64,000 nt of DNA. Origin: Paenibacillus alkaliterrae. Lineage in GTDB: Bacteria > Bacillota > Bacilli > Paenibacillales > Paenibacillaceae. Location of the stretch: NCBI RefSeq assembly GCF_021532375.1, contig NZ_JAKGAP010000014.1, forward strand, positions 62,001 through 126,000, given 5' to 3'. Made by a program: the position numbers and the translations under genes. Every line of letters begins with the position of its first letter. Position 1 is the first letter of the stretch. The notes under the pieces were generated by a model. That model worked only from the letters and a program-made list of their open reading frames with translations. It made no database searches and was not told the origin of the DNA. This document shows positions 28,499 through 35,337 of this stretch, one piece after another.

Positions 28499-30883
28499 CT
28501 ACATCCGGATCGGGGCTTCCTGAAGCTCGGCCCGCGACTGCAGATAGCGGAAGAACGCGACGGACGCTTCGGCGCGTGTCACTTCCTTCGCCGGCAGAAA
28601 CTTGCCGTTCGATAAGGTCATGATTTTCAAGCCGACGACGATCGCTGCCTGTCCTTTGTTCGTAATTTGTGCCGAATCATCAAATGAGGATTTAAAAATA
28701 TCATCGTAATTGGCCAACGCGTTGTACCCAAGCGCCCGCACGATCAGCTCGGCCATTTCGTCACGGGATACCTTGCCCTCGGGATTGAAGGAGCCGTCGC
28801 CTACATCAATCAGATTCTGCTCCAAGGCGCTTTCCACATAGACGAAATAGCTGGAATCCGCAGAGACATCGTTAAAGGAAGCTTTCATTTGCGATTGATC
28901 CGCCATGGATAATAGACCGTACGTTTGTCCGCTGTTTCTCGCAAGAACGAGCATCTTGATCAGCTCTCCGCGCGTTACCTTTTCATTCGGCCGAACCTTG
29001 TCGTCCTTGATATCAAGCGCTTTGTAAGCGACCATCAGCTCCAGCTGACGCTGCGCCCAATGTCCCTCGATGTCCATCGCCTTCGGCTTCTCCAGCTGCG
29101 TGACTTCGCCCGTGCGTTCATTGCGCCATTCTCCCGTCACCGCGTCAAGCACTACCGATTCATCGATAAGGCGCGGCACCAGGCGATAGACCAGCTCCGC
29201 TTCCGTAATCGTCTTCACATTGTCCGCTTCGATTTCACCTGACGCCACCATAAGCTTATATTTCTCGATCGGGATCGGCTGTCCGTTCCATGAGAACTGC
29301 TGAACAAGGCGGTAGGTTAGCTGTGTGCGGTAATACGTTAACCAGCTGTCCACCGCTTTGTCCTTCGAAATAAGCTTCGGCGCCTTCTCAGGATAGGCAA
29401 AATCCGAAATATAAGCGTCGTAATTGACCACATCTCCCGTACTTGAATCTATCGAAACGTTGATGCTGTCGTACTGTACCGCAGCGCCATGCACCTTATG
29501 CACGAAGCTGAAATAGTACTGCCGGCTCTCGCCGCCGTTCATATCCTCGTATTGCTTCGGATCCGGCTTGAAGAAATAAAGCTCATGCGTCAGCCAAGGC
29601 AATTGCTTCTTCACCGCATCGACGGCGAGCGTCGAAGCTTGTTCGAGCGTCATATTCTGGCCGCTTGTCTGCGGCGGGTTATTATAATTGTAAATATAGA
29701 AGCTGCGAACGGCACCCGTACGGCCGTCAACGGAAGCGGAAGCACCTCCTGCATCCTTCCCGTCCTTCTTGATGCTCCAATTCAAATACCAATAGGCTTC
29801 CGTCCCGCCGCTGCCCTCATTATGGCTCTCGCTGTAGTTCGAGCTGTTCAGCTCCGCTTCTGCAGGCAGCTTGAACGCAGTCTTCACGGCGTCGGCTGCC
29901 TGCTTCTCGGTTACTTTGCCCGCTTTCGGCTCTTCACCTATCGGCTTATCCGTAACCGGTTTTTCCGATACGGTTCCGCCTCTGAAATAGCTCTCTTTCG
30001 ACTGGTCCTTCACCTCTCCAGTAGCCGCATCGATGGCAATCGGCTGCAGGCCGTAACTGAGCAAAGGCTCGCGTTTCCCTTGCGTTTTGTACGGCAAAAG
30101 ATAAGACAGCTCCGGAGACGCCGTCGCGCGCAGCTTCTCATTGGCTTGTTCGGGCGTCAGCTTCGAATCTACCTTCGGGAATTTCACCGTATCGTCCCAC
30201 CGGAAGGAATATCTTGTAATATGGCCCTCGCTATCGACCTCAAGCTCGATGAAATTATCGACGTACGGAATTTCATGGACCAAACGATCGTACCGAAGCA
30301 GGTGCCGCACCTCGCCTGTCAGCGGCGGGAGCAGCTGTACCCCGTAATCCGGATTATATTGAATCTGATTCTTATAGCCGCCTGCCACCGTGCCAATGAA
30401 ATCCAGAGCGATTTGCCCTGCCGCTTCACGCTCGACCTTTAGCGGATATGCAGGCTTTGCCGAAGGGTTATCCATGTAAGAATTAAATTCAAGAAGCTGC
30501 CCGCTGTCAGCATGAATGCGCACGTAAATGCTGCCGACATGTTTGCCGTTCGCCTTCTTTACGAAATCAAGGCCCCAAACGTTACGTTTGCCTCCAGCCA
30601 GCACATCCATCGAGAAGTTGGCTCCCTGGAGCGTAAATTCCTTCGGAATGCTGACATACTTTCTTGCGAGCGCCTCTGCCTGTTCCTTCGTTACGTCCGC
30701 ATCGGCCATTACTCCAGACGGATCTGCCATAGCGTCTCCTTCCAATGAAAATAACGTTTGTCCCGCATCGCCCGTCCTGATAGATTTGTTGGCGCTTTCA
30801 GCAAATGCCGCAGCCGGCAAGGCACTCATCAGCATAGCTGCAGAAAGCATAACCGCAAGCTTCGTTCGATTATTCTTCTTCAC
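28499..30883 (-). CDS. Secreted YcdB/YcdC-domain protein with three SLH domains
   Basis: The product has 794 residues. A Sec signal peptide (about 1-27, LPAAAFA cleavage region) comes first. Several PepSY-like YcdB/YcdC units follow to about residue 600; the repeated theme is TxEQAxxxA followed by a strand ending in G-x-L/V-x-x-Y/F, for example LTPEQANEKLRAT and ITRYSFRWD. Three S-layer homology domains close the protein (from about 615: DIEGHWAQRQLELMVA, then FNDVSADSSYFVYVESALEQ, then DDSAQITNKGQAAIVVGLKI), tethering it to the cell-wall polymer. The GTG at 30883 has GGAGG 8 bases upstream; longer frames lack the signal peptide at the N-terminus. Its biochemical role is unknown. Confidence 0.88.
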   Translation of the reverse strand: MKKNNRTKLAVMLSAAMLMSALPAAAFAESANKSIRTGDAGQTLFSLEGDAMADPSGVMADADVTKEQAEALARKYVSIPKEFTLQGANFSMDVLAGGKRNVWGLDFVKKANGKHVGSIYVRIHADSGQLLEFNSYMDNPSAKPAYPLKVEREAAGQIALDFIGTVAGGYKNQIQYNPDYGVQLLPPLTGEVRHLLRYDRLVHEIPYVDNFIELEVDSEGHITRYSFRWDDTVKFPKVDSKLTPEQANEKLRATASPELSYLLPYKTQGKREPLLSYGLQPIAIDAATGEVKDQSKESYFRGGTVSEKPVTDKPIGEEPKAGKVTEKQAADAVKTAFKLPAEAELNSSNYSESHNEGSGGTEAYWYLNWSIKKDGKDAGGASASVDGRTGAVRSFYIYNYNNPPQTSGQNMTLEQASTLAVDAVKKQLPWLTHELYFFKPDPKQYEDMNGGESRQYYFSFVHKVHGAAVQYDSINVSIDSSTGDVVNYDAYISDFAYPEKAPKLISKDKAVDSWLTYYRTQLTYRLVQQFSWNGQPIPIEKYKLMVASGEIEADNVKTITEAELVYRLVPRLIDESVVLDAVTGEWRNERTGEVTQLEKPKAMDIEGHWAQRQLELMVAYKALDIKDDKVRPNEKVTRGELIKMLVLARNSGQTYGLLSMADQSQMKASFNDVSADSSYFVYVESALEQNLIDVGDGSFNPEGKVSRDEMAELIVRALGYNALANYDDIFKSSFDDSAQITNKGQAAIVVGLKIMTLSNGKFLPAKEVTRAEASVAFFRYLQSRAELQEAPIRM

Positions 30884-30960
30884 CGCTTCACCCTCCAATG
30901 CTTTTCCAATATATACATGAATTAGACGCGCATTAAAGTTGCGAAGTTGCACAATAAGCA

Positions 30961-31011
30961 AAAAAAATATCGCCTGCCACTCAGCCTTTGCTGAGCGGCA
31001 GACGATATTTT
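30961..31011 (-). terminator. Terminator of trxA
   Basis: On the minus strand AAAATATCGTCTGCC pairs with GGCAGGCGATATTTT, with CTCAGC/GCTGAG at the top, followed by eight T. It is 26 bases past the trxA stop. Confidence 0.92.
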
Positions 31012-31036: not shown

Positions 31037-31348
31037 TTACATCTGACCGGAGATTTTCGATTTCAAAGCATCCTTGCTTTGAACGCCGACCATCTTGTCA
31101 ACGGGTTGGCCGTCTTTGAACAAAATTAGCGTCGGGATACTCATAACGCCGAACTGAGATGCTAATTCAGGCTCTTCGTCGACGTTAATTTTCGCGATTA
31201 CCGCTTGGCCTGCAAGCTCAGTGGAGAGTTCCTCCACGATTGGAAGCTGCATTTTGCAAGGTCCGCACCAAGGTGCCCAGAAGTCTACAAGAGCAACGCC
31301 GTTTTCAACGCTTTGTGCAAAGTTATCTTTCGTCAATGCTACTGCCAT
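31037..31348 (-). CDS. trxA: Thioredoxin
   Basis: This is the general disulfide reductase. From the ATG at 31348 (GAGG 9 bases upstream) the product has 103 residues. The active site is [15 protein letters not shown], the cis-Pro lies in [11 protein letters not shown], and the buried aspartate segment is ALVDFWAPW. Length and motifs are standard. It is a single-gene unit ending in a strong terminator. Confidence 0.97.
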
Positions 31349-31421
31349 TACAATCATCCTCTCCAAACAATGTGTATGATTAAGGGAATACCCGTCTCAC
31401 CGTTCGTTGAAACATCAATTG

Positions 31422-31841
31422 CTAACCGCATGCGTGAATCTGCTGCAATACATCCTCAATCGTTATCGCGCTAAAATGGCTTTCCAGCTGCTTCTCCGCT
31501 GTGCAGAATATACCGAACATCACCTGATTCATATTCGATCCTACTAAGCAATCCATCTCCGGATTGCCCGAGCACCAGCTCGGGATAAGCGAGCCCTGCG
31601 CCATTACGCGGTAAATATCGGCCAGCGTCACCACGCTCGGATCAATTGTCAGCCTGTAGCCGCCGCCTGAGCCTTCGCGCGTATCCACAAAACCGCTGCG
31701 GCGCAAACCGCTCATCACCTTCCGAACGCGTGCGGAGTGAGTGCCTACGTTCTCGGCAATCATGTCGCTGCTCGCCATTCTCTCCGGCAAATAAGCCAAG
31801 TAAACGAGACTGTGTACGGCAATTGTAAATTCGCTGTTCAC
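31422..31841 (-). CDS. Rrf2-family transcriptional regulator
   Basis: This 139-residue winged-helix regulator starts at a GTG with GGGAGG upstream. The helix-turn-helix lies in SSDMIAENVGTHSARVRKVMS and the wing in GSGGGYRLTID. Cysteines occur in SWCSGNPEMDC and FGIFC, spaced differently from the three-Cys cluster of IscR, so it is closer to YwnA-like or redox/NO-sensing members. Its own promoter carries a perfect inverted repeat over the -10 region (31865-31887), so autorepression is likely. Confidence 0.88.
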   Translation of the reverse strand: MNSEFTIAVHSLVYLAYLPERMASSDMIAENVGTHSARVRKVMSGLRRSGFVDTREGSGGGYRLTIDPSVVTLADIYRVMAQGSLIPSWCSGNPEMDCLVGSNMNQVMFGIFCTAEKQLESHFSAITIEDVLQQIHACG

Positions 31842-31899: not shown

Positions 31900-32122
31900 C
31901 AGTCAGGCAGTCAAATCCCATATCTAGCTTGCGACAAGTCCCATGACCTTATTCATCTGCATCAATCCCGGTTTATTTTCAAAAATATTCTATTATATAT
32001 AAATTCATATTGGTATAACCAAGAAGTTATTGAAATTAATAGTTTCTTCTTCTTTCAATGTCTTTCGTTCGCGCATGTATATAACCCGCTAAAAATGGAC
32101 ATAATAGATTGCGCTCAAATTG

Positions 32123-32151: not shown

Positions 32152-32195
32152 CGAAATGTTGTTCAACACTATAACTGTTGAGGAAAGGTTTGATT

Positions 32196-35100
32196 ATGAA
32201 TACGAGCACGACTAAAAAAAATGAGCACATTCCAGAGCTTCAGCTCGTTAGAGTTTTGGCTATTATTGGCGTTCTTTCTGTTCACGCAAGCGCCTCTGCT
32301 ATTGGTTCCATGAAAGAATCAGGCTATTATTTCTTTTATAATTTTGTAAATATTTTCATGAAGTTCGGAACGCCTACCTTTATATTATTAAGCAGTTTTG
32401 TCTTATTTTACAGCTACTATTCCCGTCCGGTTGACCGCAAGCTGATTACGGGTTTTTATAAGAAACGGCTTCTTTATATTATTATTCCATATATTGTGTT
32501 CTCAACCTTTTATTTTGTTTTAGGACGCTTTCTAGCAGACCTTCCGCTTTTATCCTACGATTCTTTAAGCAATTATTGGGAGAGGCTGAGCACAGGCAAA
32601 GCTTTCGCGCATCTATATTTTGTTTATATTAGCATTCAATTCTATCTATTGTTTCCAATCGTGCTTTGGCTTGCAAAAAAATGGCGCCCGCTCGTTCATT
32701 GGTTGATTCCGATAGGTTTCGCTCTTCAATGGGGCTTCGTATTAATGAATAAATACTATTGGCAGGTTGCGAATAAGGGAAGCTGGTCGCTGTCCTATTT
32801 CTCCTTCTTTTTCTTAGGGGCCGCATTAGGCATTTATTACCCGAAGATTAAAAACTGGCTGATCATTAATAAGCAAAACGCCAACGGCTACCGCATCACG
32901 GCTTGGACCTTTGTATGGCTGGCTTGGCTGGGACTCGCTTTGGCTCATGTCACCATTTATTACAATAACCGTTCCTTTGAAATAAAATACAATTCGCTTT
33001 TATTTGAATTCTTATGGAATTTTCATTCCATCTTTTCCGCTTTGGTTCTTATACAGGCTGCTTTCCTGATCTACCGCAGCTTTCCGTCTTTCGTTGCTAA
33101 ACCGTTATACCGGCTGGGCCAATTGTCATTCGGCATTTATCTCATCCATTTATTTTTCCTGTCCTTTATATACGATCGATACATGCCGCAATTCGGCATA
33201 TCGTGGGTGGCCCATTTCAGTTATTTAGGAAGCTGGCTGTTTATGCTTATCGCATCATGGGCTGCGGTCGCATTAACGGCGAGATTCATTCCTTTCTCCT
33301 GGATCGTGTTCGGCAATGTGCCAGGGGCTAAAAATAAGCTGCACATCACCAAAAAGAAAATGATTACCGCAGGCGCCGCTATCGTCATTCTCGCTTCTTC
33401 CGTCGTGATCGGCGTATGGATCAAATCGGCCGAAACGGAAAATACACATGAGCGGCAGCCTTTAATCGAGGTGGTTTCCGAAGAAACGGTTAATGAAACT
33501 TATGATGTCATCGTTGCAGGAACGGATCCTGAAGGCATAGCAGCCGCCGTATCCGCAGCCCGCAATGGATTAAAGGTACTTCTTGTTGACGGCAAAAACC
33601 GGGAAATACTCGGTGGGCTTATGACCGTCGGCGGACTCAATACACTCGATAATAATAATTCGCCGATAAAATCAGCAATTCCCGGCAAGCACATTTTTTT
33701 GAACAAAGGCATATTTCAGGAATTGTACGATCATATAGAGGGTACCTCTTTCGATACGAATACAGCTGCTAACGCATTTTATAAATTAGTCTCCAACGAA
33801 CCTAATATCGATTTGGTCATGAAGGTGCAAAGCATGGCGCCGATCATGGGTTCAAGCAGCAGCGGAGGCGCGTCGATTGACGGTCTTCGTATCGTGAAGG
33901 AAGACGGAACGGAGCAAAGCATACTGGCACAGGCTGTCATCGATGCAACGCAGGACGGCGATATTGCCGCTGCTGCCGGAGCGCCTTTCACGATCGGACG
34001 CGAGGATCTAAACAGGCCCGAGGCGCAAATGGCTGCAACGCTCGTCTTCAAGCTGAGCGGCGTCACTCAGCAAATTTGGAATTCCTTCGGACAGCACAAG
34101 TTATCCGGCGTAGATTCCATGAGCGGCTGGGGCTTCCCGGATGCCAAGGATTACGTCTCGTCCGATCCGGAGCGCGTCAAGATGCGCGGCCTCAATATCG
34201 GCAGGCAAAACGACAATACGATTCTGATTAATGCGATGCATATTTTCAATGTCGATCCGCTTGATCCGAAATCAGTCGAAGCGGCATTGGAGGTTGGACG
34301 CGCTGAAGCCCCGCGAATCGTTGATTATTTAAAGAAAACATTCGCCGAATTCAAGGATCTTGAATTTGCAGGCACGGCGGATGAGCTGTATATCAGGGAA
34401 TCGCGTCACTTCCAAGGGGAATATCGTCTGACGATGGCCGACGTGATGGATAATCGCGATCACTGGGATGCGATTGCTTACGGCTCCTACGATGTCGACA
34501 TTCAAAGCGCGCATTATAAGGACGAGGGCATTATTATGATGTCCCCTTTGCAATATGGCGTTCCATTCCGGACGCTCGTACCGCTGAAGGTCGATGATTT
34601 GCTTATCGTCGGTAGAGCGGCCAGCTTCGATTCTATGCCGCACGGCAGCGCGCGGGTTATCCCGCTTGGAATGGCAACCGCAGAAGCGGCAGGAGCAGCC
34701 GTGAAGCTTGCCATCGATAACGGCATTACGGTGAGAGAGCTGTCAAAATCCGAAGAGCTTATTGTCCGCCTTCGTTCCCATCTGGAGGAGCAGGGCATGG
34801 ATCTTAAGATGAATGATTTCGAACCGCTGGCCTATACGAAGCACAAAGCTTACAAAGCGCTGATTGCCGCTGTGAGCATGATGAATACGAGCGGCGCCTA
34901 TGACAACAGCAACTTTGAACTGGACGCCGCATCGAACGCAGAGCGCTACGTTTTCAAATTGCTCAATGTGATGAAGCTGCATCCGGATTATTTCCCAGGG
35001 GATCCTGACGCAGCTATTACGAATATCCCAAATGCAATCGATCAGCCTTTAACACTGTCACAAGCGATTCTAACCATCGCCTATGCGATCGATACCGCGA

Positions 35101-35258
35101 ACGTCGGCGCACTAACGCTTGACGAGATGCTGGGCCGCGGCTGGATCATGCAGGAAACAATCGACGCCATTACAGACCAGTCGGCCATTACGAATGGCGA
35201 ATCGTTTATGCTGATTAGAGATGTAGTCGAGTATTATGCCATGACTGTTTACGAGTAA
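32196..35258 (+). CDS. Acyltransferase-3 membrane protein fused to an FAD-dependent oxidoreductase
   Basis: The product has 1020 residues. Residues about 10-380 form a multi-pass acyltransferase-3 (OafA/YrhL-like) domain: it opens LQLVRVLAIIGVLSVHASAS, and about ten hydrophobic helices follow. A further helix at about 389-410 (MITAGAAIVILASSVVIGVW) leads into a soluble FAD-dependent oxidoreductase domain of the PF12831 type: YDVIVAGTDPEGIAAAVSAA at about 436, LGGLMTVGGLNT, VIDATQDGDIAAAAGAPF, and ESRHFQGEYRLT. In known acyltransferase-3 fusions the extra helix places an SGNH domain outside the cell; by analogy the FAD domain may be extracellular. The frame is continuous and the ATG has AGGAAAGG 7 bases upstream. 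The first 1.2 kb is visibly richer in A+T than the second half. Substrate unknown. Confidence 0.85.
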   Translation: MNTSTTKKNEHIPELQLVRVLAIIGVLSVHASASAIGSMKESGYYFFYNFVNIFMKFGTPTFILLSSFVLFYSYYSRPVDRKLITGFYKKRLLYIIIPYIVFSTFYFVLGRFLADLPLLSYDSLSNYWERLSTGKAFAHLYFVYISIQFYLLFPIVLWLAKKWRPLVHWLIPIGFALQWGFVLMNKYYWQVANKGSWSLSYFSFFFLGAALGIYYPKIKNWLIINKQNANGYRITAWTFVWLAWLGLALAHVTIYYNNRSFEIKYNSLLFEFLWNFHSIFSALVLIQAAFLIYRSFPSFVAKPLYRLGQLSFGIYLIHLFFLSFIYDRYMPQFGISWVAHFSYLGSWLFMLIASWAAVALTARFIPFSWIVFGNVPGAKNKLHITKKKMITAGAAIVILASSVVIGVWIKSAETENTHERQPLIEVVSEETVNETYDVIVAGTDPEGIAAAVSAARNGLKVLLVDGKNREILGGLMTVGGLNTLDNNNSPIKSAIPGKHIFLNKGIFQELYDHIEGTSFDTNTAANAFYKLVSNEPNIDLVMKVQSMAPIMGSSSSGGASIDGLRIVKEDGTEQSILAQAVIDATQDGDIAAAAGAPFTIGREDLNRPEAQMAATLVFKLSGVTQQIWNSFGQHKLSGVDSMSGWGFPDAKDYVSSDPERVKMRGLNIGRQNDNTILINAMHIFNVDPLDPKSVEAALEVGRAEAPRIVDYLKKTFAEFKDLEFAGTADELYIRESRHFQGEYRLTMADVMDNRDHWDAIAYGSYDVDIQSAHYKDEGIIMMSPLQYGVPFRTLVPLKVDDLLIVGRAASFDSMPHGSARVIPLGMATAEAAGAAVKLAIDNGITVRELSKSEELIVRLRSHLEEQGMDLKMNDFEPLAYTKHKAYKALIAAVSMMNTSGAYDNSNFELDAASNAERYVFKLLNVMKLHPDYFPGDPDAAITNIPNAIDQPLTLSQAILTIAYAIDTANVGALTLDEMLGRGWIMQETIDAITDQSAITNGESFMLIRDVVEYYAMTVYE

Positions 35259-35280: not shown

Positions 35281-35337
35281 AACCAAAACAATGAACCGGT
35301 CAAGGGACTATCCTTGGCCGGTTCGTTGTTTTGGTTT
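35281..35337 (+). terminator. Terminator of the fusion gene
   Basis: AACCAAAACAATGAACCGG pairs with CCGGTTCGTTGTTTTGGTT, with CAAGG/CCTTG at the top, followed by a short T-run. It begins 22 bases past the stop. Confidence 0.85.

Follow-up and report, generated by a model that had tools for sequence, protein, structure and literature searches.

What would a membrane acyltransferase do with a flavoprotein attached to its end, and how did the two come to share one chain? The question is raised by a gene of Paenibacillus alkaliterrae, found in a 64,000-nucleotide stretch of contig NZ_JAKGAP010000014.1 (positions 62,001 to 126,000; hereafter the window). The gene occupies positions 32196..35258 of the plus strand and encodes 1020 amino acids followed by a stop; its ATG at 32196 has GAGGAAAGG upstream. 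Its product is one conserved chain: an acyltransferase-3 (AT3) domain, an eleventh membrane helix derived from a signal anchor, an extracytoplasmic oxidoreductase domain of the flavin adenine dinucleotide (FAD) type that resembles geranylgeranyl reductase (GGR) and FixC, and an SLH-like end. In a reading that we hold tentatively, the protein may well be a bifunctional cell-envelope tailoring enzyme, one that both acylates and oxidises or reduces either the secondary cell wall polymer (SCWP) or a wall glycan next to it.

Architecture of the fusion protein

The open reading frame (ORF; 32178-35258, plus strand) runs without any interruption. The AT3 domain fills residues 1-380 (32196..33335, plus strand) with ten membrane helices, as seen from Pfam, the structural model and alignment; the match to PF01757 covers residues 13-361 (E 1.2e-28; 100.6 bits against a curated cut-off of 31). 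Helix 11 follows at residues 386-414 (33351..33437, plus strand) with KKK in front, and matches the N-terminal signal anchor of unfused flavoproteins. Next comes a domain of the exported PF12831 flavoprotein type, with a GGR/FixC-like fold (residues 435-852; 33498..34751, plus strand), recognised by Pfam, model and fold search; PF12831 itself matches residues 437-852 (E 1.6e-85; 288.3 bits, curated cut-off 27). The AlphaFold2 model of the fusion has a mean predicted local distance difference test score (pLDDT) of 93.2 and a predicted template modelling score (pTM) of 0.77. In it the AT3 part has ten helices long enough to cross the membrane, and the eleventh spans 386-414; hydropathy picks out nine of these ten, and the eleventh at 389-407. 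The first-pass annotation had described just such an uninterrupted gene, joining a ten-helix AT3 domain, an eleventh helix and PF12831, and the open frame, the Pfam matches and the model bear it out.

Helix 1 of the AT3 half carries R19-X10-H30, both residues being invariant across 10 aligned fusions; this is the R/K-X10-H motif described for that helix (PMC7448272; here and below, articles are cited from excerpts of their text). At the RXXR motif of helix 3 the protein reads FYKKRLLY (residues 87-94), without a strict RXXR when judged by eye and with no OafA alignment. The flavin domain is strongly conserved along its entire length in the fusion alignment. Its dinucleotide-binding loop is GTDPEG (residues 442-447; 33519..33536, plus strand), where cytosolic PF12831 proteins have a GGGPAG-like loop. 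Among structures, the nearest folds are geranylgeranyl reductase-like/FixC flavoproteins (3oz2, 7koe_C) at 13-16% identity, with many other flavoproteins nearly equal in score; such likeness proves no function. The fold matches listed are taken up by the flavin domain, and the absence of an AT3 fold from them therefore does not count as a negative. A sequence search of the PDB returned weak Rossmann matches and nothing closer. Against NCBIfam, the best 25 of 40 matches to the fusion all lay far under cut-off, and four flavoproteins searched at E 1e-10 found no match.

The last 168 residues (853-1020; 34752..35255, plus strand) are modelled by AlphaFold2 at pLDDT 92.7. They are recognised by fold alone: the fold search leads to a three-repeat SLH spindle, alike in fold to the SLH trimers of Sap (3pyw) and SpaA (6cw*/7sv*). 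Matched by eye, SLH Trp13 corresponds to Tyr886 in the first repeat.

Topology and known partners of AT3

The order of helices is that of the AT3-SGNH O-acetyltransferases (OafA, OafB, OatA), in which ten AT3 helices are followed by an eleventh that puts the partner outside (PMC7448272, PMC9833829). Both kinds of protein have the AT3 domain, helix 11, an enzyme-type domain outside and R/K-X10-H in helix 1. They differ in the partner: no SGNH family is among the seven Pfam families listed for the fusion, and PF12831, followed by the SLH-like domain, stands instead. The GG-F/Y-XGV motif given for AT3-SGNH proteins (PMC7448272) is also missing, by eye, from the AT3 half of the fusion. What we find is a membrane AT3 that bears, in the place taken by SGNH in OafA and OafB, a redox domain outside the membrane, as had been proposed from the sequence.

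That proposal also took SGNH as the known AT3 partner. The layout shared with OafA and OafB stands, but SGNH is not the sole partner known, because fusions of AT3 to a C-terminal alanine racemase, VanT among them, are named in PMC9558356. VanT too joins AT3 to an unrelated C-terminal enzyme domain; its racemase is cytoplasmic (PMC12423673), whereas the partner described here is extracytoplasmic and of flavin type. Since VanT proves that an AT3 partner may be cytosolic (PMC12423673; the fusion type also in PMC9558356), the C-terminal half could in principle lie in the cytosol as well, the chain then coupling cytosolic metabolism to export. We give this almost no credence: an eleventh helix follows the ten, KKK precedes it, the flavin half has no cysteine, unfused relatives carry signal anchors or lipoboxes, and the chain ends in an SLH-like fold.

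Exported proteins of Bacillota tend to exclude cysteine. There are 0 cysteines in 13 fused flavin halves and 11 per 23,537 residues in 40 members of the flavoprotein family, compared with 47 per 15,280 in AT3 halves. As a control we took 18 more distant PF12831 loci, hand-picked from weak PF12831 matches in the same genome set. The nine with a signal or lipobox have 0 cysteines behind the N-terminal segment, whose own cysteines stood outside the count, and the nine without a signal have 3 to 8 each; cysteines were counted over the whole protein in L157, L161 and L166, and the N-termini of L163, L167 and L168 were inspected. The architecture and the extracytoplasmic position of the flavin half are thus well supported. 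Within this control set, L163-L168 and L170-L172 form a second exported PF12831 group, with loops of the GSEVEG or GTEMEG kind, no cysteine behind the N-terminal segment and, in some, lipoboxes.

Unfused exported PF12831 flavoproteins, for which we met no family name, occur in the order and in other classes of the phylum. They share with the fusion helix 11 as an N-terminal anchor, a G-x-[DE]-P-E-G loop and a C-terminal part of similar length; they differ in having no AT3 half and, in some sampled genomes outside the class, in lying beside csaB. Other arrangements of the family were also met. In L152:6552-9482 (putative start) the flavoprotein is joined to a different N-terminal multi-helix domain, which has no Pfam match in the part tried and which, by eye, we take to resemble Yip1. 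L183:8735-10957 is an exported flavoprotein whose N-terminal domain belongs to PF07833 (copper amine oxidase N-terminal), and L184:3673-5907 starts like it (by eye).

Distribution and origin of the fusion

Fourteen of 51 genus genomes carry the fusion, 13 with matches over approximately 1-1020 and one (G004) with an insertion of about 51 residues. A scan of named genomes likewise gave 14 full-length loci, of which 12 carry the title Paenibacillus, one belongs to Bacillus sp. FJAT-26390 and one to Cohnella phaseoli. Distant fusions were possibly overlooked here, as the scan ran on two AT3 patterns alone. Including that of the window, 15 distinct fused proteins are known to us from these searches; one, L044:7747-11127, has an insertion of about 51 residues within the flavin domain. 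Two wider scans, of 296 genomes from the order and 398 from the phylum, scored two candidates in each genome; among the matches listed, the window's own genome was the only one to match at full length. Of 93 matching plasmid records, 0 carry 80% of the query at one place. The ratio of nonsynonymous to synonymous substitution rates (dN/dS) is 0.03-0.12 across the three domains and at most 0.25 in the linker (five fusion pairs; three cells with saturated dS omitted); in these pairs the fusion is under purifying selection. A frameshift or an assembly join, the artefact that the first-pass annotation had kept in view, is ruled out as its source by the full-length copies in other genomes of the genus.

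At the N-terminus of unfused flavoproteins a short basic stretch is followed by one hydrophobic helix, and these proteins align with the fusions right through helix 11. The unfused protein thus begins at helix 11, and the fusion therefore consists of an AT3 domain plus a complete exported-flavoprotein gene. Trees were built with 13 of the 15 fusions (L037 and L044 omitted). In the flavin tree without the long-branched L153, the 13 fused copies form one clade (Shimodaira-Hasegawa-like approximate likelihood ratio test, SH-aLRT, 97.6); with L153 included, the base is unresolved. In the AT3 tree the fused copies fall within a 16-row clade with support 100, which also contains three AT3-only genes, from Cohnella faecalis, Paenibacillus sp. 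LHD-117 and P. agaridevorans. The approximately unbiased (AU) test rejects AT3 monophyly of the fused copies alone (p 0.001), for a group defined after the tree was viewed. Two of the three AT3-only genes end in linker-like letters, GKKTVTV and GKRTVAG, exactly where helix 11 would start; the 420 bases downstream of these genes, inspected by eye, showed no flavin remnant. The simplest history, favoured by the trees, would be a single joining event, after which at least two lineages (three genes) lost the flavin half.

That two once-separate genes were joined, as first suggested, is well supported by both trees and by the start of the unfused flavoprotein at helix 11. The argument originally offered for it, a change of base composition between the halves, does not hold. 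The G+C break (0.408 versus 0.512) lies mainly within the first 170 codons and at the first and second codon positions. At fourfold sites, the G+C of third positions (GC3) is 0.61-0.63 in 85-codon blocks spanning codons 171-425, versus 0.615 for codons 431-853. Of 10 other fusions, 6 have the higher fourfold GC3 in the flavin half and 4 in the AT3 half.

Split homologues, which had been suggested as worth seeking in relatives, exist in divergent, co-directional and unlinked forms. A divergent AT3 gene stands beside at least 8 of 43 unfused flavoprotein loci, among the matches listed. In Cohnella terricola the flavoprotein is followed by AT3 in the same direction after a 21-base gap, and Oceanobacillus, Ureibacillus and Gracilibacillus have divergent AT3/flavoprotein pairs, a biased set that came from the AT3-pattern scan. 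The AT3s of split pairs sit elsewhere in the AT3 tree than the fused ones, and the association therefore seems to have arisen more than once. Among the matches listed for the order, unfused relatives are about 46-65% identical to the flavin half of the fusion; in other families of the order (L136, L139, L141-L143), the unfused flavoprotein lies amid genes of the rel, dtd, hisS and aspS kinds.

It might be supposed that the halves work on separate substrates, the AT3 acylating one glycan alone, like AT3-only enzymes, and the fusion merely coupling their membrane location. Each half does occur alone in many genomes, AT3-only copies within the fused clade persist without a flavin half, and the AT3 half has not the GG-F/Y-XGV motif of AT3-SGNH proteins (by eye; motif from PMC7448272). 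We nevertheless judge this rather unlikely. AT3 and the flavoprotein meet in several arrangements (fused; divergent in Paenibacillus, Oceanobacillus, Ureibacillus and Gracilibacillus; co-directional in C. terricola), the AT3s involved come from separate regions of the tree, and mere anchoring fails to explain the repeated pairing because the unfused flavoproteins possess an anchor of their own.

Genomic context and proposed function

We infer the substrate of the bifunctional enzyme from the gene neighbourhood of unfused relatives and from the SLH-like fold; its acyl step would follow from analogy with AT3 biology, and its redox step is suggested by the flavin fold. The neighbourhood was studied in 18 loci outside the window's class (L176-L193), selected by eye with tandem copies preferred. 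Six of them show the order FAD-FAD-DUF5693-CsaB (L176-L181, e.g. L178:6922-15602), with a MurJ-family gene next in five (L177-L181); DUF5693 is present in 8 of the 18, families being confirmed on examples by Pfam and NCBIfam. The CsaB of L178 matches TIGR03609 at 302.9 bits (cut-off 213.1). CsaB is the pyruvyl transferase that makes the pyruvylated SCWP end group bound by SLH domains (PMC10435577).

Counts over whole genomes point the same way. We took as carriers all 71 matched genomes outside the window's family (same phylum, other class), with two candidates scored per genome. In 17 of them a flavoprotein lies within 5 kb of a CsaB gene, where about 0.46 would be expected if genomes measure 2.6 Mb. 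CsaB scores over cut-off in 70/71 carriers versus 59/80 non-carriers (Fisher p 9.7e-6, a value that ignores kinship); the latter, with no match at E 1e-60, are the first unmatched genomes in numerical order (G687-G781) and no random draw. In the genome of P. alkaliterrae itself, a csaB-like gene (PF04230; 34% identical to that of L178) adjoins a DUF5693-like gene (27%); both lie on the contig of the fusion, about 65 kb away from it. Genes near split or unfused loci encode subtilase-SLH, amidase-SLH, beta-lactamase-SLH or AT3-SGNH proteins. The first-pass annotation, which had suggested an enzyme that oxidises and acylates a surface or exported substrate, contained neither this csaB link of the flavoprotein family nor the SLH-like third domain.

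From these elements we propose the following course. The AT3 domain would carry an acyl group, most likely acetyl, from cytosolic acyl-coenzyme A through the membrane and place it on a sugar of the SCWP or of its lipid-linked precursor. Just outside the membrane, the flavin domain would oxidise or reduce the same polymer, while the SLH-like domain would tether the enzyme to the polymer or the wall. The tailored end group may then help to set the attachment of SLH-anchored surface proteins.

Peptidoglycan or another wall glycan could take the place of the SCWP, with OatA-like acylation coupled to redox of the same sugar. In Oceanobacillus and Gracilibacillus a flavoprotein has an AT3-SGNH gene as its neighbour, near the Ureibacillus pair lie genes for an Amidase_3-SLH protein and for a PF00884 sulfatase-family protein, and the cluster outside the class includes the MurJ-family gene; all three would suit a wall glycan. 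The adjacency to csaB and the co-occurrence with CsaB, however, favour the pyruvylated polymer, and we regard the alternative as improbable. A beta-lactamase-family SLH protein recurs near unfused flavoproteins and AT3-only genes (L053, L150, L151, L154, L123, L124, L131; by Pfam for L053, by sequence cluster for the others).

Several observations weigh against a bifunctional enzyme acting on the SCWP. The first concern the SLH-like end. Unlike the SLH trimers of Sap and SpaA, it has no PF00395 match over cut-off in the fusion, nor is there one among the best 25 of 32 families for 28 relatives; outside the class 1 of 10 relatives matches, at 15.3 bits (cut-off 20.8). Profile-profile comparison gave SLH probabilities of 8% and 5%, and a local profile did no better than shuffles, so that none of these comparisons is significant. 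The TRAE arginine, which in SLH domains binds pyruvylated SCWP (PMC6081394), is replaced in the three repeats by Asn914, Leu and Asn1000 (by eye). The adjacency to csaB, moreover, was observed outside the window's class and not at fusion loci. Relatives outside the class are also richer in cysteine (48 per 17,162 residues of flavin half), though they nevertheless have signal anchors or lipoboxes.

The remaining points concern how often the halves part company. Within the fused AT3 clade the flavin half is absent from at least two lineages (three genes). Among the matches listed, 35 of 43 unfused flavoprotein loci have no adjacent AT3, and all 21 unfused loci examined with flanks were without AT3 at E 1e-8. 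Conversely, AT3 had no flavoprotein within the stretch examined in 58 of 80 loci of the named-genome scan. The class sample includes 14 flavoprotein loci of the Ureibacillus type, and a close AT3 relative adjoins 1 of them (G679, convergent). Such frequent separate occurrence means that neither protein requires the other.

Around the fusion gene, a terminator-like site with a 20-pair stem and a T-rich tail lies directly 3' (35287..35330, plus strand; consensus match). On the minus strand are a divergent Rrf2-family regulator (31422..31841), a thioredoxin adjoining it (31037..31366) and a DUF4901 (YcdB/YcdC) protein with an SLH domain (28499..30961); their sequence clusters recur in 9/15, 5/15 and 12/15 fusion loci, respectively. 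The regulator, of 139 residues, has four cysteines (positions 90, 98, 113 and 138), which may sense redox state. Between it and the fusion lies a weak, AT-rich imperfect palindrome (31984-32011), the sole one from a scan for operator palindromes. The recurrence of the Rrf2 and thioredoxin clusters would fit a flavin domain that serves as a redox sensor or gate, regulating acyl transfer with no modification of the acceptor. The domain is, however, conserved throughout and widespread without AT3, and therefore probably has a chemistry of its own; a mere sensor is very improbable.

No description of an AT3-FAD fusion, or of an exported flavoprotein family beside csaB, was among the literature matches listed, and no match found gives the family a function. 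A broader proposal, possible but somewhat doubtful, is that this widespread family performs an undescribed extracellular redox step in SCWP maturation, with the flavin held via a cation-bridged acidic G-x-[DE]-P-E-G loop and docking by a hidden SLH-like trimer. In the Paenibacillus clade its fusion to AT3 would unite, in a single enzyme, the acylation and the oxidation or reduction of the anchoring end group that SLH surface proteins recognise.

AT3 is a large family whose partners and acceptors are an open problem, and PMC9558356 asks whether AT3-only proteins require a partner, 'SGNH or otherwise'. The fusion supplies a new partner enzyme, so that AT3 and partner can be tested as a pair. Through it a widespread family of exported flavoproteins with a tie to csaB comes to light, and this tie hints that the polymer to which S-layers and other SLH proteins are anchored undergoes a redox step.

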